DNA from: Pseudomonadota bacterium
GTDB lineage: Bacteria; Pseudomonadota; Alphaproteobacteria; Dongiales; Dongiaceae
Direction: 5' to 3'
Assembly (NCBI GenBank): GCA_021792365.1
Contig: JAJYUT010000006.1
Coordinates: 186,001 to 250,000 of the forward strand
Length of the DNA stretch: 64,000 nt
In this document: piece after piece, positions 23,340 through 31,407 of the stretch
How positions within the stretch are numbered: position 1 is the stretch's first letter
Layout: each line of letters begins with the position of its first letter
Program-made: the position numbers and the translations under genes
The notes under the pieces: model-generated
What the model saw: the letters and a program-made list of their open reading frames with translations, nothing else
What the model was told of the DNA's origin: nothing
The model's database searches: none

Positions 23340-23638
23340 TGCCGGCCTCTCCCGTCTGGGCCGTTTGAGCGATGCGGCCCGCTACGTTCTGATAGAAGGC
23401 AAGTCTCAGAACGGACGCCTTCCGCCATCAAAGTCCGATCAAATCGGACGGCGCGGCACTACGAACGCTGCCGCGACGCTCTCCTTCGAAAAAGGTAAGA
23501 CAAGCTGCCGCATTCAGGTTTCCCAAGGTAAATTGAAAGACTGTGACGCACATCCCACATATATTGGGGAAGTCAAAACTTTTCTAGGATTCTTGCCCGA
23601 ACAGGAGTATGAGGAGCGCCCAGTTGTGGAGGTGGCCC
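23340..23638. promoter_or_regulatory. Divergent promoter region between decarboxylase and SARP-like regulator
   Basis: 299 bp with a clearly AT-richer part at about 23540-23600 (CACATATATTGGGGAAGTCAAAACTTTTC), unlike the coding DNA on both sides; this is likely where the regulator promoter lies. A strong GGAGG sits seven bases before the regulator ATG at 23639. No clean inverted repeat was found. Confidence 0.4.
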
Positions 23639-25672
23639 ATGGCTCTTATCGAACTGACCTTGCTTGGTGGATTTTCCCTTCGTCGGGCCGACAAAAGGGA
23701 TGTCCGGCTGCCCACGCGCAAGACCGAGGCCCTGCTGGCATTCCTCGCCTGCCATCCAGGAGAGAAGCAGCCGCGCGACCGACTGACGGCCCTGCTGTGG
23801 GGGGATCGCAGCGACCGCCAGGCCCGTCATAGCTTGAGCCAGACTCTTCTCTCGATCCGGCGGGAACTCGGCGAGGCCGATTCCCTGCTGCTGGTTGAAC
23901 GCGAGACGGTCGCCTTGCGCGCCGAAGCCGTCAACTGCGACGTGACCGAGTTCCGCTATCTCGCCGGCACGGCTGGAAGCTGGCGTGCGGCCCTCGATCT
24001 CTATCGCGGCGTGTTCCTCGACGGCTTCAGCCTGCGCGAGCCGGGGTTCGAGGATTGGCTGGTCGAGGAACGGGCGCGGTTGCAGGGGCAGGCGTTCGAT
24101 ACGTTCCTCGCCTTAGCCGACGCGCAGCTCGCCGCCGGCGATTGGAGCGACGCCATCTCCACCCTGAACAACGCGATCCGATTCGATCCCCTGGCGGAAG
24201 AAGCCTATCGGCGTCTCATGAGCCTGCAGATCGAGCATGGCTTCTGCAACGACGCGATCCGGAACTATCGCTTCCTGGCGGAAGCGTTGCGGCGCGAGCT
24301 GAAGACCCAGCCGGACCCGTCGACGACGGCAATCTACCAGCGCGCCACCGCGCGCCCGCAACAGCCGCAACTGCAGGTCGTGTCCGAGGCCGCGGCGCCG
24401 AGAGAACCGGCGCCAGCGGAGGAATCCGGAGCGCCTCATCGGGAACCAGCCGGCCCGCGGCGGGCCTCGGTCGCGATCATGCCCTTCATCGATCTCGATG
24501 CGGGAATGGAAGGCAAAGTGCCGCTGGCGCGCGGCCTGACGCACGACGTGATCACACGCTTGGCCAAGCTACGGAGCCTGTTCGTCATCGCGCAGGGCAC
24601 CATCTTTGCGCTCGCCGACAAGGGCATCGGCGCCGAGGAGGCGGGCCGACTGCTCAACGTGGACTACGTGGTGTCCGGGACGATCCGGAACCAGGACGGC
24701 CAGGTGATCGCCACGATCGAGCTGGTCGAGACGCGCTGCGCCCGCATCGTCTGGGCCGAAACGATCGAGCGCAAGGTGAACGATTCGCTCTCCATCGAGG
24801 ACGAGATCGTCAATCAGGTGGTGAGCTCGGTGGCCGCCGAGATCGAGCTGTCGGAGCGCAACCGCGCCATCCTCAAGCCGCCCGGTTCGCTCGATGCTTG
24901 GGAGGCCCTGCATTGCGGCTTCTGGCATATGTATCGCTTCAACGAGGCGGACAACGAGCGGGCGAAACGGTTCTTCAAGCTCGCGGTGCGCCTGGATCCG
25001 ACGATGGCGCGGGCCCATGCCGGGCTCTGCTTCACCCATTTCCAGAACGCCTTCCTGCTGCGGCCGAGCGAACGCCAGCAGGAGATCGCGCGCGCCTATG
25101 AGGCGGCGTGCGACGCGCTGATCGCCGACGACCGCGACCCGGCGGCCCATTGGGCGATGGGACGCGCCCTCTGGCTGCGCGGCGAGCACGACCAGTCCGT
25201 GCGCGAGCTCGGCGACGCGGTGGATCTCAGCCCGAACTTCGCGCTAGCGCAATACACGCTGTCCTTCGTCCATTGCCAGTCGGGCGATGCGGCGGCGGCG
25301 ATCCGTTATGCGGACCTGTCTCACAATCTCAGCCCCTATGATCCCATGACCTTCGCGATGCTCGGGTCCAAGGCCCTCGCCTATGCGAGGCTTGGCCGGT
25401 TCAACGAAGCGGCGGAATGGGGGATCAAGGCAACCTTGCGCCCCAACGCCCACTCGCATGTCGTGGCGATTGCCGCCGAGTGCCTGGCCCTGGCGGGCCG
25501 CGGCGACGACGCGCGCGCATTCTCAGCGCGCGTTCACCATGCGCGGCCGGACTATTCAATTGAGGATTTCCTGGGCGCTTTCCACTTCTCTCAGGCGGAC
25601 GCGATGATGTTCCGGCGCGCTGCACGAGATGCCGGAATCTTCCAGCCCGGGAAGCTGCTGCGCTCGGCCTAG
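23639..25672 (+). CDS. SARP-like transcriptional activator: winged helix, BTAD, TolB-like and TPR domains
   Basis: A 677-aa cytoplasmic regulator. I use ATG 23639 because GTGGAGG precedes it; a longer start at 23609 has no such site. Residues ~1-95 are an OmpR-type winged helix as in AfsR/DnrI proteins (ELTLLGGFSLRRADKRDVRLP, then SLSQTLLSIRRELGE). Residues ~95-235 form the bacterial transcriptional activation domain (YRGVFLDGFSLREPGFEDWL, LAEEAYRRLMSLQIEHG). After a proline-rich linker, residues ~285-400 resemble the TolB-like domain (VAIMPFIDLDAGMEG, LNVDYVVSGTIRNQDGQV), followed by tetratricopeptide-like helices to the end. Proteobacterial proteins of this build usually regulate adjacent genes; the oxygenase operon and the decarboxylase are candidates. 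It ends 3 bp from the convergent SDR gene. Confidence 0.85.
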   Translation: MALIELTLLGGFSLRRADKRDVRLPTRKTEALLAFLACHPGEKQPRDRLTALLWGDRSDRQARHSLSQTLLSIRRELGEADSLLLVERETVALRAEAVNCDVTEFRYLAGTAGSWRAALDLYRGVFLDGFSLREPGFEDWLVEERARLQGQAFDTFLALADAQLAAGDWSDAISTLNNAIRFDPLAEEAYRRLMSLQIEHGFCNDAIRNYRFLAEALRRELKTQPDPSTTAIYQRATARPQQPQLQVVSEAAAPREPAPAEESGAPHREPAGPRRASVAIMPFIDLDAGMEGKVPLARGLTHDVITRLAKLRSLFVIAQGTIFALADKGIGAEEAGRLLNVDYVVSGTIRNQDGQVIATIELVETRCARIVWAETIERKVNDSLSIEDEIVNQVVSSVAAEIELSERNRAILKPPGSLDAWEALHCGFWHMYRFNEADNERAKRFFKLAVRLDPTMARAHAGLCFTHFQNAFLLRPSERQQEIARAYEAACDALIADDRDPAAHWAMGRALWLRGEHDQSVRELGDAVDLSPNFALAQYTLSFVHCQSGDAAAAIRYADLSHNLSPYDPMTFAMLGSKALAYARLGRFNEAAEWGIKATLRPNAHSHVVAIAAECLALAGRGDDARAFSARVHHARPDYSIEDFLGAFHFSQADAMMFRRAARDAGIFQPGKLLRSA

Positions 25673-25675
25673 AGC

Positions 25676-26470
25676 CTATTCGCCGATCACGCCGGCGACG
25701 TTCTGGTCGTAGTCCACCAGCGCGCCGGTCATGACGCCGGATTGCGGGCTGAGCATGTAGGTGGCGAGGATCGCCAACTGGTCCGGCTTCACAAGCTGGC
25801 CCATTGGCGCGCTCGCCTCTGCCTTCTGCAGCCAGTCGTCCGGGGCATCGTGACACTTCTTCTGGATGTCGTGCTCCGCGGGCGTGTCCATCCAGCCCGG
25901 CAGGACGGCGTTGCAGCGGATCCGCTTGGACTTGTATGCCGCAGCCACGTTCTTGGTCATTGTCGCCAGCGCCCCTTTCGAAGACGAATAGGGCGTAAGG
26001 AACGACTGCCCGGCGTGGGCCGACATCGAGAGGATGTTCACGATCGAGCCGGGCGCACCGGCATCCAGCAGACGCCGCACCACGCCCTGCATCAGCAGGA
26101 AGGGGCCGCGCACATTGGTATTGAAAATCAGATCGAACAGCTCCGGCGCCGTGTCGATCAAGGTGCCGCGCGCCGAGGTGGCGGCCGCGTTGACCAGGCC
26201 ATTGACCGTGCCGAAGCGGTCGCTGGCGGCGGCCACGATCCGGCCGCAATCCTCCACCTTGCTCACATCGGCCTGCACGAAGATGGCATCGACGCCGAGC
26301 GTCTTCAGTTGATCGACCGCGCGTGCCCCCTTCTCCGCGGTACGGCCGGCGATCGCAATGGATTTACAGCCTTCCTCCGCGAGCTGTCGCGCGATGGCGA
26401 AGCCGATGCCCTGTGCGCCGCCGGTGATGATGACCTTGGTGTTCTGGTTGCGCGTGTTCGCGTCGAGCAT
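25676..26470 (-). CDS. Short-chain dehydrogenase/reductase
   Basis: A 264-aa classical SDR. The nucleotide loop is VIITGGAQGIGFAIARQL (TGxxxGxG), followed by DVSKVEDC, NAAAT, a Ser in ILSMSAHAG and the catalytic YxxxK as YSSSK, then GWMDTPAEHD. I chose ATG 26470, preceded by AGGA in a suitable position; a longer upstream frame lacks family similarity. It is divergent from the MocD-like gene, 301 bp apart, and probably acts on an alcohol or ketone made by that operon. The C-terminal VDYDQNVAGVIGE replaces the usual DGG ending seen in many SDRs. Substrate unknown. Confidence 0.87.
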   Translation of the reverse strand: MLDANTRNQNTKVIITGGAQGIGFAIARQLAEEGCKSIAIAGRTAEKGARAVDQLKTLGVDAIFVQADVSKVEDCGRIVAAASDRFGTVNGLVNAAATSARGTLIDTAPELFDLIFNTNVRGPFLLMQGVVRRLLDAGAPGSIVNILSMSAHAGQSFLTPYSSSKGALATMTKNVAAAYKSKRIRCNAVLPGWMDTPAEHDIQKKCHDAPDDWLQKAEASAPMGQLVKPDQLAILATYMLSPQSGVMTGALVDYDQNVAGVIGE

Positions 26471-26771
26471 TGTCCTGACCTTTCGAAGCCGGGTGGCGGT
26501 GTGGCCATGATGCCAGCCGATAATAGGCATCGATCCGAAGGGACGTGAAGCCCGGAGGGGTAAACCGGCTCCGGGGCCTGACCGCTGCGGCATACGCCGT
26601 TCAGGCAGCAAGCCGCCCTGATCAAAACCCATCAGGACGGAGGCTTGGATTGAAGGGTTTTGAGGCCTTATATCTGTCGTGAATTGAGTCAATCCGCGTT
26701 GGAGACTAGCTTCGTTTGCATCCGGCGGCCGTCCTGGGCGGCCCAACGAGACATCCGGGAGAGACGACGAT
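26471..26771. promoter_or_regulatory. Divergent control region of SDR and MocD-like operon
   Basis: 301 bp without a gene. Two symmetric elements stand out: CCTGAT at 26617-26622 paired with ATCAGG at 26631-26636 (8-bp spacer), and a perfect 11-bp palindrome, ATTGAGTCAAT, at 26683-26693. The second is next to the AT-rich CTTATATCTG stretch, a plausible promoter core. The palindrome lies about 80 bp before the MocD-like start and could be an operator. The regulator is unknown. Confidence 0.4.
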
Positions 26772-27854
26772 ATGCCGTTGCGCGATTACAGCTTGATCGG
26801 ACCGGAGGCGGAGAAGGCTGTCCAGAAGGGATTGGCGGCGGGCGCATGGTACCGGCCGGATATTCCGCGCTGGCAGATGAAGGACCTGATGCAGCGGCGC
26901 GACGGCCCCGCCATCCGCGATACCATGCTGTGGATCGCGCTGTTCATCCTTTCCGGCGCGGGGGGATTCTATTTCTGGGGTACGTGGTGGTGCGTGCCGT
27001 TCTTGTTCTGCTACGGCGTGCTATACGGCTCATCGACCGACAGCCGCTGGCATGAATGCGGCCACGGCACGGCGTTCAAGACCCGGTGGATGAACGACGC
27101 CGTCTACCACATCGCCTCCTTCATGATCATGCGAGAGCCGGTGATCTGGCGCTGGAGCCATGCGCGGCACCATACCAACACCATCATCGTCGGCCGCGAT
27201 CCGGAGATCGTCGCCACGCGGCCGCCCAACCTGTTCCAAATATACCTCTATTTCTTCGGCATCACCACCGTTCCGAAGGCGCTGCAAAAAATGGCGATCC
27301 ACGCCATGGGGCGGCTGACGGAGGAAGAGAAGACCTTTGTGCCGGAATCGGAATGGAGCAAGGCATATGTGATCGCGCGAATTCACCTGGGGATCCATGC
27401 GCTTCCCTTCGCGCTCGCGATCCATTTCGGCTCGTGGCTGCCGCTCATGTATTTCGGCGTCCTGCCAACCATGTACGGTGCCTGGCTCGGGGTCTATTTC
27501 GGCCTGACACAGCATGCGGGTCTGGCGGAGGATGTGCTCGACCACCGGCTCAATTCCCGAACGGTGCACATGAACCCGATCTTCCGCTTCGTCTATTGGA
27601 ACATGAACTATCACATCGAGCATCACATCTTTCCGATGGTGCCGTACCACGCCTTGCCGAAACTGCATGCGATCATGGCGCCGGACCTGCCCAAGCCGTA
27701 TCCCGGCACGATTGCCGCTTACCGGGACATCATCGGGGCCCTGCTCCGACAGCGGACTGACCCGGCCTGGACCATCGAGCCGGAGTTGCCGGCCTTGGCG
27801 AAACCCTGTCAGCCGGCCGTGCCGGGCAATGCGACTCCGGCACCGGCGGCGTGA
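26772..27854 (+). CDS. MocD-like membrane di-iron fatty acid desaturase/hydroxylase
   Basis: A 360-aa integral membrane oxygenase of the desaturase/AlkB-like superfamily. The three histidine boxes are intact: HECGH at residues 94-98, HARHH at 130-134 and HIEHH at 281-285. Hydrophobic segments at ~51-85 and ~205-245 frame them. It begins a tight operon with a Rieske ferredoxin and a ferredoxin reductase, which deliver electrons from NAD(P)H, the same trio as MocD-MocE-MocF of rhizopine catabolism in Sinorhizobium. In that pathway the trio is thought to act on a methyl ether of an inosamine. Here other moc genes are missing, so the substrate may differ. The last ~40 residues are a proline/alanine-rich tail. 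Confidence 0.88.
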   Translation: MPLRDYSLIGPEAEKAVQKGLAAGAWYRPDIPRWQMKDLMQRRDGPAIRDTMLWIALFILSGAGGFYFWGTWWCVPFLFCYGVLYGSSTDSRWHECGHGTAFKTRWMNDAVYHIASFMIMREPVIWRWSHARHHTNTIIVGRDPEIVATRPPNLFQIYLYFFGITTVPKALQKMAIHAMGRLTEEEKTFVPESEWSKAYVIARIHLGIHALPFALAIHFGSWLPLMYFGVLPTMYGAWLGVYFGLTQHAGLAEDVLDHRLNSRTVHMNPIFRFVYWNMNYHIEHHIFPMVPYHALPKLHAIMAPDLPKPYPGTIAAYRDIIGALLRQRTDPAWTIEPELPALAKPCQPAVPGNATPAPAA

Positions 27855-27878
27855 CCCTCAGCCTTGGGGAACAGCCCT

Positions 27879-28196
27879 ATGAGCAGCAATTGGATCGAAG
27901 CCTGCGCGGCCGACGCGATCGAGCAGGAGGATGTCATCCGCTTCGATCACGGCGGGCGCACCTTTGCCATCTATCGCAGCGCCGAGGACGACTACTTCGC
28001 CACCGACGGACTCTGCACCCACGAGCAGGTGCATCTGGCCGACGGGCTGGTGATGGACGACATCATCGAGTGCCCCATGCATAACGGGCGCTTCAATTAC
28101 CGGACCGGCGAGGCGAAAGGAGCGCCGGTCTGCGTGAACCTGCAGACCTATCCGGTGAAGGTTGAAGCCGGCAAGGTCTTGGTCCAGCTCGACTGA
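27879..28196 (+). CDS. MocE-like Rieske 2Fe-2S ferredoxin
   Basis: A 105-aa soluble Rieske protein that passes single electrons from the reductase encoded next to the membrane di-iron enzyme upstream. The cluster ligands are plain: Cys46-x-His48 (CTH) and Cys65-x2-His68 (CPMH), 17 residues apart as in bacterial Rieske ferredoxins. The end (VCVNLQTYPVKVEAGKVLVQL) is the usual last strand pair. I chose ATG 27879, with GGGGAA upstream; a TTG 15 bases earlier is possible. It lies 24 bp after the MocD-like gene and 5 bp before the reductase, so translation is probably coupled. Confidence 0.9.
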   Translation: MSSNWIEACAADAIEQEDVIRFDHGGRTFAIYRSAEDDYFATDGLCTHEQVHLADGLVMDDIIECPMHNGRFNYRTGEAKGAPVCVNLQTYPVKVEAGKVLVQLD

Positions 28197-28201
28197 CCTT
28201 C

Positions 28202-29437
28202 ATGCCGGGGGGAATGGCCATCGTCGGCGCGGGGCAATGCGGCGCGCGCGCCGCCCTGACGCTGCGTGAGCACGGATACGACGGATCGGTGACCCTGATC
28301 GGCGACGAGTTGCATCTGCCTTACGAGCGGCCGCCTCTGTCGAAGGATGTCATGGTTTCCGAGGCGGAGCCGGTCCCGCGATTTGTTGCCGACCGGCAGG
28401 TCTTCGCAGACCGGAGCATCCAATACCTGACCGGCACGCGCGCCATCGCGATCGACCCGGCGGCACGATCTATCAGGCTCACCGACGACCGGACCCTCCC
28501 CTATGACAAGCTGCTGCTGGCGACCGGCGCGGCGCCGCGCCGCCTGCCGCTGCCCGCCGCGGATGGAAGCCGCTGCGCCTATCTCAGGACCTATGACGAT
28601 GCCCTGCGGATCCGCGGCGCGATCGGCGCCGGCGCTCATGTTGCGATCCTGGGCGGCGGCTTCATCGGCCTGGAGCTTGCGGCCAGCGTGCGCAAGCGCG
28701 GCGCCCGCGTGACGGTGATCGAGACCTTGCCGCGCATCCTGACGCGGGGCGTTCCCGAGGAGATTGCGCGCATCATCGATGCGCGACACCGCAGCGAAGG
28801 CGTCGATCTCGCCTGCGGCAAGGCGGTAGCCGCCCTGCGCGACGCTGCGGGCGGGGTGGAAGTCGTGCTGACCGACGGCTCTGTGATCATCGCCGATCTG
28901 CTCCTCATCAGCATCGGCGCCGTCCCCGTCGCCGGCCTGGCCGAGGAGGCCGGCCTTGCCATCGAGAACGGCATCGCCGTGGACGCGCACTTGCGCACGT
29001 CCGATCCAGACATCTACGCCGCGGGCGATTGCTGCTCGTTTCCGCTGGCGATCTATGGCGGAAGGCGCGTGCGGCTGGAATGCTGGCGCAACGCACAGGA
29101 CCAAGGGACGCTGGCCGCACGCAACATGCTCGGCGCCGGAGAGAGCGCGTCGAGCGTGCCGTGGCTCTGGACGGACCAATACGAGCTGAGGCTGCAGATC
29201 GCCGGATTGCCGGACGAGGGCAAGCGGCTGGTGCGCCGTGACCTGCAGGACGGCGCGTTCATCCTGTTTCATCTGGCTGACGACGGACGGCTGGTGGCCG
29301 CAAGCGGGCTTGGAACGGGCAACGCGGTCGCGAAAGACGTCCGCGTGGCGGAGATGCTGATCGCGAGACGCGCGAAGCCAGACCCGGCGGCCCTGGCCCG
29401 GCCGGAGACCAAGTTGAAGTCGCTGTTGGCGGCATAG
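28202..29437 (+). CDS. MocF-like NAD(P)H:ferredoxin reductase (FAD)
   Basis: A 411-aa FAD oxidoreductase of the putidaredoxin/rhodocoxin reductase type. The FAD loop is AIVGAGQCGARAALTLRE (residues ~6-23). YERPPLSKDVM is characteristic of this subfamily. The NAD(P) loop is AILGGGFIGLELAASVRKRG, and DPDIYAAGDCCSFP is the second FAD motif. It should reduce the MocE-like ferredoxin encoded 5 bp upstream. The PanB-like gene follows after 14 bp. It is the expected electron entry point of a three-component oxygenase and is probably cotranscribed with it. Confidence 0.9.
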   Translation: MPGGMAIVGAGQCGARAALTLREHGYDGSVTLIGDELHLPYERPPLSKDVMVSEAEPVPRFVADRQVFADRSIQYLTGTRAIAIDPAARSIRLTDDRTLPYDKLLLATGAAPRRLPLPAADGSRCAYLRTYDDALRIRGAIGAGAHVAILGGGFIGLELAASVRKRGARVTVIETLPRILTRGVPEEIARIIDARHRSEGVDLACGKAVAALRDAAGGVEVVLTDGSVIIADLLLISIGAVPVAGLAEEAGLAIENGIAVDAHLRTSDPDIYAAGDCCSFPLAIYGGRRVRLECWRNAQDQGTLAARNMLGAGESASSVPWLWTDQYELRLQIAGLPDEGKRLVRRDLQDGAFILFHLADDGRLVAASGLGTGNAVAKDVRVAEMLIARRAKPDPAALARPETKLKSLLAA

Positions 29438-29451
29438 CTGGGGGGAGTTCG

Positions 29452-30249
29452 ATGCGGGACTTGAGGCCGACGGTTGCCGACCTGCTCGCCATCAAGGGCA
29501 AGCGGCAATTGAGCATGCTGCGGGTCGAAAGCCTGGAAGAGGCAGAGGCTGCCCAGAAGGCCGGCATAGACCTGCTTTCGGTGCCGCCGGGCCTGCTGGG
29601 GTCGGAGTTCCGCGAGGCCGTGCCGACCTGCTTCGTGTTTCCGGGGCTGGATTACGGCGAGTATGTGACGGAGGAGGAGTATCTGCGTGCCGCGTTCAAG
29701 GCGCTCAAGGCGGGCGGCGATGCTGTGTGGTGCGCCGCCAGCCTACAGATCATCCGCAGGCTGCGCGACGAAGGCGTGCCGGTCTGCGGCCATGTCGGAC
29801 TGATCCCCGATCGGCGCACCTGGACCGGCGGGTTCAAGGCGGTCGGCAAGACGCTGGAGAGCGCGCTCCTGGTCTGGCGGCAGACCAGGGCGCTGGAGGA
29901 GGCAGGTGCGTTTTCGGCGGAAATCGAAGTTGTCCCGACGGAGGTAGCGAGCGCCATCTCGACACGCACCTCGCTGTTCATGATTTCCATGGGCTCGGGC
30001 GCGGGATGCGACGCGCAATACCTGTTCGCGACCGACGTGCTCGGCACCAATCGTGGACATGTCCCGCGGCATTCCAAGGCCTATCGCAATTTTGCCGCCG
30101 AGTATGACCGGCTACAGCAGGAGCGCATCGCCGCCTTCTCCGAACTGGTGCGCGACATCAAGTCAGGCGCCTATCCCGAAGTGAAGCAACAGGTCGGTAT
30201 CGCGAAAGCGGAACTCGACCGGTTCCTGCACGCGCTGGAGCAGGACTAG
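29452..30249 (+). CDS. PanB-like (ketopantoate hydroxymethyltransferase superfamily) protein with altered active site
   Basis: A 265-aa protein of the PEP mutase/KPHMT TIM-barrel superfamily. The likeness to PanB is clear in KRQLSMLRVESLEEAEAAQKAG, VPVCGHVGLIPDR with WTGGFKAVGKT, EVVPTEVA, SMGSGAGCDAQYL and GHVPRHSKAYRNF. The catalytic Glu (E. coli Glu181) is kept as Glu159. The metal ligands are not: by my alignment from memory Asp45 becomes Pro45, Asp84 becomes Gly65 and Glu114 becomes Ala95, and Lys112 becomes Trp93. A normal Mg-dependent ketopantoate reaction is therefore unlikely. Its position as last gene of the oxygenase operon suggests a related lyase or aldolase step on the oxidised product. 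A panB label would be misleading. Confidence 0.8.
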   Translation: MRDLRPTVADLLAIKGKRQLSMLRVESLEEAEAAQKAGIDLLSVPPGLLGSEFREAVPTCFVFPGLDYGEYVTEEEYLRAAFKALKAGGDAVWCAASLQIIRRLRDEGVPVCGHVGLIPDRRTWTGGFKAVGKTLESALLVWRQTRALEEAGAFSAEIEVVPTEVASAISTRTSLFMISMGSGAGCDAQYLFATDVLGTNRGHVPRHSKAYRNFAAEYDRLQQERIAAFSELVRDIKSGAYPEVKQQVGIAKAELDRFLHALEQD

Positions 30250-30366
30250 GCGGTTCGGATGTCGCACGGCCTCGCTTGCTTCAAGCATATTTGATTTGGC
30301 AAGCCTGACGCAGCTATGGCGTGCTTTTCTGCGCGGCCTTAGTCTGGCATGGTGCGGATGGGGTGA

Positions 30367-31137
30367 ATGGCACGAAGGCAAGGCATGAAGTGGTTTCTGC
30401 TGATTCTTGCGGCCTGGATCGTCGTCCCGGTCGTCGTCAGTTATGTGCGCTATTCGGCGCCTGAATATTCCTGGAGCACTGCACCGCGTCATTCCTCGGG
30501 ACTTGCCCCCAACCCGGAGGTGCATCGCGATGCGGTCGTGCAGATCTACAATGCCCGCGCCTTTTCATGGCGCGGCATCTTCGCGACTCATCCCTGGATT
30601 GTCGTGAAGAAGTCCGGCGCGGAGGCCTACAAGCGGTATGAGGTCGTGGGCTGGGGCTCTGGTACGAAGCTCCGCACCGACTATGCGACCGTCGACGGGC
30701 TGTGGTACGGCTCCACGCCATCCTTGCTGGTCGACCTGCGCGGATCGAAGGCCGATGCGCTGATCGAGCGAATAGAAGCCGCGGTCGCGTCCTATCCCTA
30801 CAAAGCCAGCTATCGAACCTGGCCAGGACCCAACAGCAATACCTTTCTCGCCCATGTCGCGCGGGAAGTGCCGGAACTGAGCCTCGACATTCCAGCGAGC
30901 GCGATCGGCAAGGACTATCGCCCGTGGTACCAGCCGGTCGGGCGGGCACCAAGCGGAACGGGCGTGCAAATCTCCATTCTCGGCGTCGTGGGCGTGACGA
31001 TCGCCACGGAGGAAGGCGTGGAGTTCAATCTGCTCGGGCTGGCTTTTGGCGTGGACTTCCTCCGGCCCGCGCTGCGCCTGCCCGCGATTGGCCGGCTGGG
31101 CATGGCGGAGGGGGCTGCCGAATCCACTGGGCTGTAG
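30367..31137 (+). CDS. DUF3750 family protein
   Basis: A 256-aa protein matching the alphaproteobacterial DUF3750 family: HPWIVVKKSGAEAYKRYEVVGWGSGTKLR, then YGSTPSLLVDLRGSKADALI and YRTWPGPNSNTFLAHVAREVPELSLDIPASAIGKDY. One N-terminal membrane helix (WFLLILAAWIVVPVVVSYV, residues ~9-27) suggests an inner-membrane protein with the domain outside, or an uncleaved export signal. The conserved N-T-F-x-x-x-V pattern and tryptophans suggest a peptidase-like or lipid-binding fold, but no biochemical role is known to me. It follows the PanB-like gene by 117 bp and may be a separate unit. Confidence 0.82.
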   Translation: MARRQGMKWFLLILAAWIVVPVVVSYVRYSAPEYSWSTAPRHSSGLAPNPEVHRDAVVQIYNARAFSWRGIFATHPWIVVKKSGAEAYKRYEVVGWGSGTKLRTDYATVDGLWYGSTPSLLVDLRGSKADALIERIEAAVASYPYKASYRTWPGPNSNTFLAHVAREVPELSLDIPASAIGKDYRPWYQPVGRAPSGTGVQISILGVVGVTIATEEGVEFNLLGLAFGVDFLRPALRLPAIGRLGMAEGAAESTGL

Positions 31138-31407
31138 GGCGCCCCTTCTACACGCCTCGTCGCGGAATTTACTCTGTTAATTCAGCATTTTGCGGACGGA
31201 TAGGAGATCCGGACCGGACCTGGCGGCAACACCGTGTTAATCATAGGGACTCATAATGTCGATTATTCGCCGGGACCCGGCCCTGTGTTATGGATCGCAG
31301 GAGAACCGATGGCCGGGTGAGGAGTAGAGAGCACCGCAAGCGAACGTCCCGCAGCGGAGGACGCGAGGGTCACGCCGTACCATGCGGCGATATCAAGGAT
31401 TGCGACA

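Follow-up and report, generated by a model that had tools for sequence, protein, structure and literature searches.

Ketopantoate hydroxymethyltransferase (PanB) is presented in a passage of PMC4814558 as a class II, metal-requiring aldolase that converts methylenetetrahydrofolate (methylene-THF; THF, tetrahydrofolate) and a keto acid to ketopantoate. By the title of Bahar 1998, a reference in PMC10107442, the rhizopine genes mocDEF encode a ferredoxin oxygenase complex with a connection to the inositol pathway, and a passage of PMC6668481 assigns MosDEF, a separate complex, to rhizopine synthesis. In the nicotine purU-mabO-folD operon of pAO1, as described in an excerpt of PMC3891541, a demethylating oxidase makes methylene-THF, which FolD and PurU process. 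Here, we describe a 64,000-nucleotide stretch of an alphaproteobacterial contig of the family Dongiaceae (JAJYUT010000006.1, positions 186,001 to 250,000, forward strand; hereafter the window), in which a short oxygenase operon ends with the gene of a PanB-like protein, PanBL. The reading that we favor, at a confidence just short of even, is that PanBL is a remodeled PanB working in oxidative demethylation, where it would pass formaldehyde-level carbon to THF. The operon comprises four genes (FAD, flavin adenine dinucleotide):

26772..27854, + strand: MocD-like membrane di-iron oxygenase (fatty acid desaturase family), 360 amino acids; PF00487, 132 bits
27864..28196, + strand: MocE-like Rieske ferredoxin; TIGR02377 MocE_fam_FeS, 186.5 bits (cut-off 136.15)
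28202..29437, + strand: MocF-like FAD ferredoxin reductase, 411 amino acids; PF07992, PF14759
29452..30249, + strand: PanBL, PanB-like protein without the PanB metal and keto-acid residues, 265 amino acids

The window contains all three parts of a MocDEF-type system, i.e., a MocE-family ferredoxin (C-x-H at 51, C-x-x-H at 70), a di-iron protein with His boxes (HECGH at 94, HARHH at 130, HIEHH at 281), and a FAD reductase, whose top NCBIfam matches, HcaD and AndAa, both fall under their cut-offs. Gaps of 9 bp (MocD-MocE), 5 bp (MocE-MocF), and 14 bp (MocF-PanBL) separate the genes, and PanBL is the last of them, in agreement with an earlier note on this DNA that placed it at the end of a MocDEF-type operon, 14 bp after the reductase gene. 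The PanBL open reading frame (ORF) is intact from its ATG, which is preceded by a purine-rich stretch, to its stop at 30249, with a GC content by codon position of 0.68/0.46/0.82. The MocE-like protein is listed with a TTG start but may truly begin at an ATG a few codons further on.

Fold and phylogeny of PanBL

PanBL matches Pfam PF02548 with 130.4 bits (cut-off 28.7), covering only profile positions 72-258 of 259, and fails both NCBIfam panB models (TIGR00222, 102.2 of 207.55 bits; NF001452, 118.1 of 272 bits). A sequence search of the PDB returned five matches below 1e-14, all of them PanB entries aligned from PanBL residue 53 or later, and three further matches with E values of at least 0.19. 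An AlphaFold2 (AF2) model was built from the window protein and 38 relatives (L010 left out). This model has a predicted local distance difference test score (pLDDT) of 83.5, with low-confidence parts at residues 118-127 and 205-209, the latter including His207. It adopts the PanB/TIM-barrel fold, with VIA Z-scores of 25.0 to 1o68, 24.9 to 3vav (chain B), and 24.1 to 1m3u (chain A), a match with which Foldseek concurs; the next best fold is that of the class II aldolases (Z 15.4). The PanB barrel framework that the earlier note had recognized is thus kept.

In a tree of 56 PanBL and 39 PanB rows (leaving out the incomplete L113 and L119 and 67 of the 80 related public loci), the PanBL/PanB split has support of 100/100 and is present in 100% of 200 bootstrap trees. 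When 385 genomes from the class of the host were searched with a PanBL profile, PanBL proteins scored at least 271 bits and all else at most 182 bits; 2 of 368 genomes of another class (the one that includes G015) have a PanBL match at 1e-40. The family is common in Hyphomicrobiales, including nitrogen-fixing symbionts, and is multi-copy in some genomes. Its members carry the public label 3-methyl-2-oxobutanoate hydroxymethyltransferase (e.g., Sinorhizobium medicae WQO70311.1), which is the misannotation as panB that the earlier note had anticipated.

One genome of 1.6 Mb and ~30% GC (G538; L173, L174, L175) holds four PanBL copies. Two stand in tandem adjoining two PhyH-like ORFs, a label based on the below-cut-off matches of one of these ORFs, and one lies within a mocD-mocF-mocE-PanBL-mocD-PF04116-like cluster. 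The branch of L118 and L196 diverges most within PanBL (31-34% identity, branch length 1.39), and no oxygenase was detected within 6 kb of either, in full flanks. The profile matches that we checked at 156-182 bits (L149-L157) belong to a third PanB-like group (L123, L210-L212, L149-L157), in which Asp45, Ser46, and Lys112 of E. coli PanB are kept, Cys/Ser/Ala stands at Asp84 and Gln at Glu114, and an E-x-E pair is present; the group may be another neofunctionalized PanB branch.

Active-site residues of PanBL

Residues were counted in an alignment of 123 PanBL and 39 PanB rows, with E. coli PanB as the numbering reference. We take Asp45, Ser46, Asp84, Lys112, and Glu114 of PanB to serve the metal and the keto acid, and Glu181 and His136 to be catalytic. 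Their counterparts in the window protein, together with Glu157 and His207, are encoded as follows:

29587..29592, + strand: Pro46-Gly47 codons, aligned with E. coli Asp45-Ser46
29644..29646, + strand: Gly65 codon, in place of Asp84 (Gly in 109/123 PanBL)
29728..29730, + strand: Trp93 codon, in place of Lys112 (Tyr in 110/123 PanBL)
29734..29736, + strand: Ala95 codon, in place of Glu114 (Ala in 94/123 PanBL)
29791..29793, + strand: His114 codon (E. coli His136; kept in 123/123 PanBL)
29920..29928, + strand: Glu157-Ile-Glu159 codons (both Glu fixed in PanBL)
30070..30072, + strand: His207 codon (Phe229 of E. coli PanB; fixed in 123/123 PanBL)

The Asp45 position, in a region that aligns loosely, is Pro in 91 of the 123 PanBL rows and Asp in 3, and the segment that follows it is shortened. 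Trp at the Lys112 position occurs in two rows, one of them the window protein. The replacements by Gly65, Trp93, and Ala95 are those given in the earlier note, whose Pro45 shifts to Pro46 as the residue aligned, loosely, with Asp45 (both are Pro). The loss of the PanB metal and keto-acid residues is, as read from the alignment, a family-wide trait.

Glu159, the equivalent of PanB Glu181 and the catalytic residue that the earlier note had reported as kept, is present in all 123 PanBL rows, as is the counterpart of E. coli Asp209. Glu157, two residues ahead of it, is likewise found in 123/123 and aligns with Val179 of E. coli PanB (Val in 31 and Glu in 4 of the 39 PanB rows), and the position of His207 is Phe in 37 and His in 2 of the PanB rows. 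Arg225 belongs to a stretch that PanB lacks and is fixed in 122/123 PanBL. Because the PanB His and Glu are kept and are accompanied by the common Glu157 and the new His207, the pocket is, on sequence grounds, remodeled and not empty or dead. We rejected a dead paralog, as the ORF is intact and the His/Glu/Glu/Asp/His set is invariant across the 123 PanBL.

The earlier description of the protein as "without the metal site" holds for the PanB ligands and is perhaps too strong beyond them, because the invariant Glu157 and His207, which could make a new site, join the kept His114 and Glu159. A putative new metal site (e.g., His114, Glu157, Glu159, Asp187, His207) figures in a rather unlikely alternative and the one nearest to the earlier note's view, in which hydroxylation by the oxygenase would fall on a C-methyl or C-H position and PanBL, as a retro-aldolase, would cut a C-C bond by PanB chemistry run in reverse, whether or not CH2O then passes to THF. 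PanB is itself a class II metal-requiring aldolase in the passage of PMC4814558, the folds closest to the model after PanB are those of class II aldolases, the E-x-E pair and the new His are invariant in 123/123 PanBL, and the third PanB-like group, which has kept Asp45 and Lys112 and lacks Asp84 and Glu114, also has the E-x-E pair. This alternative is set back by the absence of the PanB ligands and Lys112, by the deletion of the loop after Asp45, and by the fact that inositol- or rhizopine-like pathways supply O-methyl, not C-methyl, substrates.

Canonical panB in genomes with PanBL

The earlier note had suggested looking for a second, canonical panB, and the host genome has one elsewhere: a full-length gene (363 bits; G000:C28:955666-956430) that adjoins panC. 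Full-length canonical PanB (at least 255 bits) is found in 29 of the 38 PanBL genomes, host included. Six of the other nine have no PanC match and one has only a 21-bit PanC fragment, a gene content that suggests pantothenate auxotrophy in these seven. The remaining two (G601, G725) have PanC with no full-length canonical PanB found, which may reflect assembly gaps. In G506, canonical PanB is present and PanC is only a 21-bit fragment, by an assembly gap or a real change.

These data bear on whether PanBL might be an additional, divergent ketopantoate hydroxymethyltransferase or some other pantothenate-linked enzyme, which we consider very improbable. The PF02548 match over the cut-off would fit such an enzyme, as would G601 and G725 (2 of 38 genomes) and the location of PanBL ~8-10 kb from canonical panB in G652 and G461. 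It is opposed by the separate PanB of the 29 genomes, by the seven that lack PanB as if auxotrophic, and by the coordinates in the 38 genomes, which place every PanBL more than 10 kb from any full-length panC. A second panB for pantothenate was rejected as the principal explanation, because a separate PanB is common and the metal and keto-acid residues are lost family-wide.

Genes neighboring PanBL

Neighbors were counted within 6 kb of PanBL at 125 loci, consisting of 80 related public-genome loci, 4 plasmid records, and 41 stretches of other genomes (L123, L124, L185, and short search-derived loci were left out), and at 20 control loci of canonical panB from genomes also carrying PanBL. Labels were assigned by tblastn with bit thresholds that we set, not curated cut-offs. 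At least 6 kb is available on both sides at 98 of the 125 PanBL loci; a flank is shorter on a side at 27 of them and at two control loci (L218, L228).

An oxygenase of any family lies within 6 kb at 106/125 PanBL loci versus 1/20 control loci, the latter being a Rieske oxygenase match and the only queried neighbor found in the control. The partner families overlap and comprise MocD (95 of 125), Rieske (12), PF04116-like (7), and PhyH-like (4) proteins; MocE is found at 96 loci and MocF at 86. Conservation with MocD/E/F, which the earlier note had proposed to check, holds among the homologs: mocD, mocE, mocF, and PanBL are all present at 75 of the 80 related loci, where MocD homologs again precede PanBL. 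Of the other five, L060 and L073 begin too near the gene for a judgment; of mocF, L067 shows no more than a fragment and L076 nothing, and L024 has none of the three. A chance neighborhood was rejected by the 20 control loci, though the choice of queries leans toward PanBL.

PurU is encoded within 6 kb at 26/125 PanBL loci (0/20 in the control) and FolD at 4/125 (0/20). Twenty-three of the 26 purU genes are on the same strand, 16-284 bp downstream of PanBL (distances between tblastn matches); the gene is divergent at L024, from a betaproteobacterial metagenome-assembled genome (MAG), and lies 2.2-2.8 kb downstream at L105 and L159. The PurU signal is strongest in rhizobia, with L024, L105, and L159 as separate cases. 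At three Rhizobium loci (L064, L075, L082), mocD-mocE-mocF-PanBL-purU-folD are consecutive. A plasmid of Sinorhizobium sp. RAC02 (L105) groups a PF04116 oxygenase, a sugar-binding protein, an ABC (ATP-binding cassette) ATPase, and MocE with an isomerase-like protein, PanBL, GFO/IDH/MocA, MocF, PurU, and FolD. PanBL, MocE, and PurU are inside an inositol operon at L159, where iolG, PurU, iolCJ, iolD, and iolB pass NCBIfam cut-offs; L159 and its upstream stretch L185, from the same genome, also hold a LacI-like gene, a PF04116-like oxygenase, and transporter genes, and an ORF of L185 is 68% identical to the RAC02 oxygenase. L158 has PanBL, MocD, and iolB over cut-off, and PurU is a neighbor of PanBL at L024, where the 6-kb range contains no oxygenase. 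The closest relative of the window protein (85% identity) is at L003, from a Rhodospirillum MAG, where sugar-binding and transporter genes diverge from mocD; the window has none there, and a divergent short-chain dehydrogenase/reductase (SDR) gene takes their place. At L194 13275-16247 (G922, another class), a long ORF that is sarcosine oxidase alpha-like by eye, 4.4 kb from PanBL, would represent a further demethylating enzyme of the methylene-THF type.

Genes of sugar metabolism are frequent as well, and PanBL could be an unrelated sugar-catabolic step with the one-carbon genes serving another enzyme of the cluster. LacI-like regulators (84/125 loci), IolI-like proteins (58), sugar-binding proteins (35), and GFO/IDH/MocA-like proteins (14) would suit such a step, as would the sugar-acid-dehydratase-like ORFs of L173 and L176, which were named by eye (as were ORF labels such as gluconolactonase-like and IlvD-like). 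Genes labeled iol-like are within 6 kb at 12/125 loci, a count that includes the IolG-like dehydrogenases of a wide family. Every one of these sugar genes occurs at fewer loci than the oxygenase system, the most widespread neighbor, and we regard this explanation as improbable.

A proposed role in oxidative demethylation

Because its oxygenase partner belongs to varied families, a shared small product is the likely common factor of the PanBL loci, and because PurU and FolD follow, this product would most likely be formaldehyde-level carbon bound for THF. On the reading that we tentatively favor, the methyl group that MocD/E/F would oxidize is most likely the O-methyl of a cyclitol or sugar resembling rhizopine, pinitol, or ononitol, and its oxidation would yield an O-hydroxymethyl hemiacetal or free formaldehyde. 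PanBL would then move the formaldehyde-level carbon onto THF to give 5,10-methylene-THF, using the folate half of the PanB reaction with no keto acid, and FolD followed by PurU (formate-THF ligase in the host) would lead to formate. The sequences show the family, its residues, the operon, the gene neighborhoods, and the separate PanB, and the methyl substrate, the binding of folate, and the reaction itself are what we infer here. The metal of PanB serves the keto-acid/enolate side of its reaction. It would be dispensable in PanBL, where His114 and Glu159 would stay as general acid/base; a kept acid/base pair and a lost keto-acid and metal side are what would be expected if only the folate half is used.

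We take MocDEF to remove the O-methyl group of rhizopine. In keeping with this reading, the host genome has two IolD matches over cut-off, FolD, and formate-THF ligase, and no Fae (PF08714) was found in it; with FolD and formate-THF ligase found and PurU and Fae not, the ligase would be the end step there. Also in its favor, He et al. 2020 (in passages of PMC7073904) call the spontaneous condensation of THF with formaldehyde too slow for effective assimilation and name PanB among two E. coli enzymes possibly promiscuous for it. An O-methyl cyclitol or sugar is the probable substrate, given the link between rhizopine mocDEF and inositol, the PanBL inside an iol operon, and the two host IolD matches. 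In a narrower version, which we consider possible but somewhat doubtful, PanBL would be a folate counterpart of Fae derived from PanB through loss of the keto-acid and metal site, making methylene-THF from formaldehyde and THF or taking the carbon directly from the O-hydroxymethyl intermediate, and would be a plug-in for several oxygenase families in methyl-cyclitol and methyl-sugar breakdown. The earlier note had envisaged a neofunctionalized lyase or aldolase acting on the product of a membrane di-iron oxygenase: a changed function tied to the oxygenase is well supported by context, and the lyase or aldolase part probably misses the main point, as the purU and folD neighbors suggest one-carbon handling with THF.

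A number of observations count against the transfer of carbon to THF by PanBL. Among the listed ORFs around the window operon and their family matches, no purU, folD, iol, or LacI gene adjoins it, and the host genome has no PurU over cut-off (best partial match 90.5 of 285.95 bits). PurU was not found within 6 kb at 99/125 PanBL loci, and the 45 more diverse loci have an oxygenase in 29 cases, MocE in 18, iol-like genes in 5, and PurU in a low 3. No oxygenase is present within 6 kb at 19/125 loci (12 short-flanked, 7 full-flanked); of the seven, L108 and L111 have a PF04116-like match ~7.4 kb off, and L159 has one in the adjoining stretch L185. Most of the 80 related loci are from Hyphomicrobiales, the 125 loci being non-independent, and the neighbor queries beyond the window genes (PurU, FolD, LacI, PF04116, Rieske, PhyH, iol, others) were drawn from PanBL loci, which biases the counts toward PanBL. 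A new metal site, possibly made up of Glu157 and His207, would suit other chemistry. Free formaldehyde, moreover, reacts with THF without an enzyme. The E. coli strain of He et al. 2020 with panB and ltaE deleted showed no change (PMC7073904).

Alternatively, PanBL could be a folate-free hydrolase, isomerase, or chaperone-like partner that receives or degrades the unstable hemiacetal or some other oxidized product from the oxygenase, with formaldehyde entering the general one-carbon pool and being cleared by purU and folD. We judge this unlikely, though it fits the oxygenase linkage (106/125 loci), the retained His/Glu pair alongside the missing PanB metal ligands, and the presence of PurU at just 26/125 loci. 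It leaves unexplained why a partner was recruited from a family that uses methylene-THF, and it accords poorly with the 23 loci where PurU is directly behind PanBL (FolD being behind PurU in three) and with L024, where PanBL is beside PurU with no oxygenase within 6 kb.

Should carbon transfer to THF by PanBL prove true, rhizobia would possess a pathway devoted to methyl groups from plant cyclitols, and PanBL would be a candidate enzyme for joining formaldehyde to THF. The short operon makes the disposal of the one-carbon product by MocDEF-type oxygenases directly testable. We found no openly licensed PMC paper that links a PanB-like protein to MocDEF or demethylation, a weak negative at the level of titles and abstracts.

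Other features of the window

Downstream of the operon, a DUF3750 gene (30367-31137) begins 117 bp after PanBL. A DUF3750 gene follows PanBL at the sister locus L003 as well, and L124, a related stretch, has one 3-4 kb from canonical panB-panC. Upstream of mocD are the divergent SDR dehydrogenase gene (25676-26746; PRK06198 over cut-off), whose listed start is probably too far upstream, and a gene for a BTAD/TPR regulator-like protein (23609-25672). A scan of 26400-31200 for promoters and terminators gave one promoter-like site (0.7 in shuffles) and six terminator-like sites (2.6 in shuffles), none decisive.

Comparison with known systems

PanBL resembles PanB (PF02548, TIGR00222; 1m3u, 1o68, 3vav, 3ez4, 1oy0) in its fold (Z 24-25 in the best rows), in His136, Glu181, and Asp209, and in the C-terminal part of the barrel. 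It differs in the lack of Asp45, Asp84, Glu114, and Lys112, the shorter loop after Asp45, the fixed Glu157 and His207, the inserted Arg225, its separate clade, and an operon that carries an oxygenase and not panC. Fae presumably belongs to a family unrelated to PanBL. The role proposed for PanBL, a catalyzed capture of formaldehyde by a pterin cofactor, would nevertheless parallel that of Fae. The Fae cofactor is, in contrast, tetrahydromethanopterin, as given in a passage of PMC7073904.

To the extent that the cited title describes it, rhizopine MocDEF shares with the window the membrane di-iron oxygenase, the MocE-family Rieske ferredoxin, and the FAD reductase, in the same order, as well as the tie to inositol breakdown, which is seen in members of the PanBL family. 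Here, however, the operon includes PanBL, and the LacI-like gene near 84/125 loci is not in the window. The P450 system for 6-O-methyl-D-galactose, as outlined in an excerpt of PMC10033563, is similar in its oxygenase-driven O-demethylation of a sugar, in the release of formaldehyde, and in a conserved auxiliary gene needed for growth; its oxygenase is a cytochrome P450 and not MocD, and its auxiliary gene encodes an alcohol dehydrogenase. The purU-mabO-folD operon for gamma-N-methylaminobutyrate demethylation, in the excerpt of PMC3891541, likewise couples a demethylation enzyme to PurU and FolD for methylene-THF, and is a precedent for the downstream FolD and PurU steps proposed here. MABO makes methylene-THF itself, whereas PanBL would be a separate protein for the folate step.
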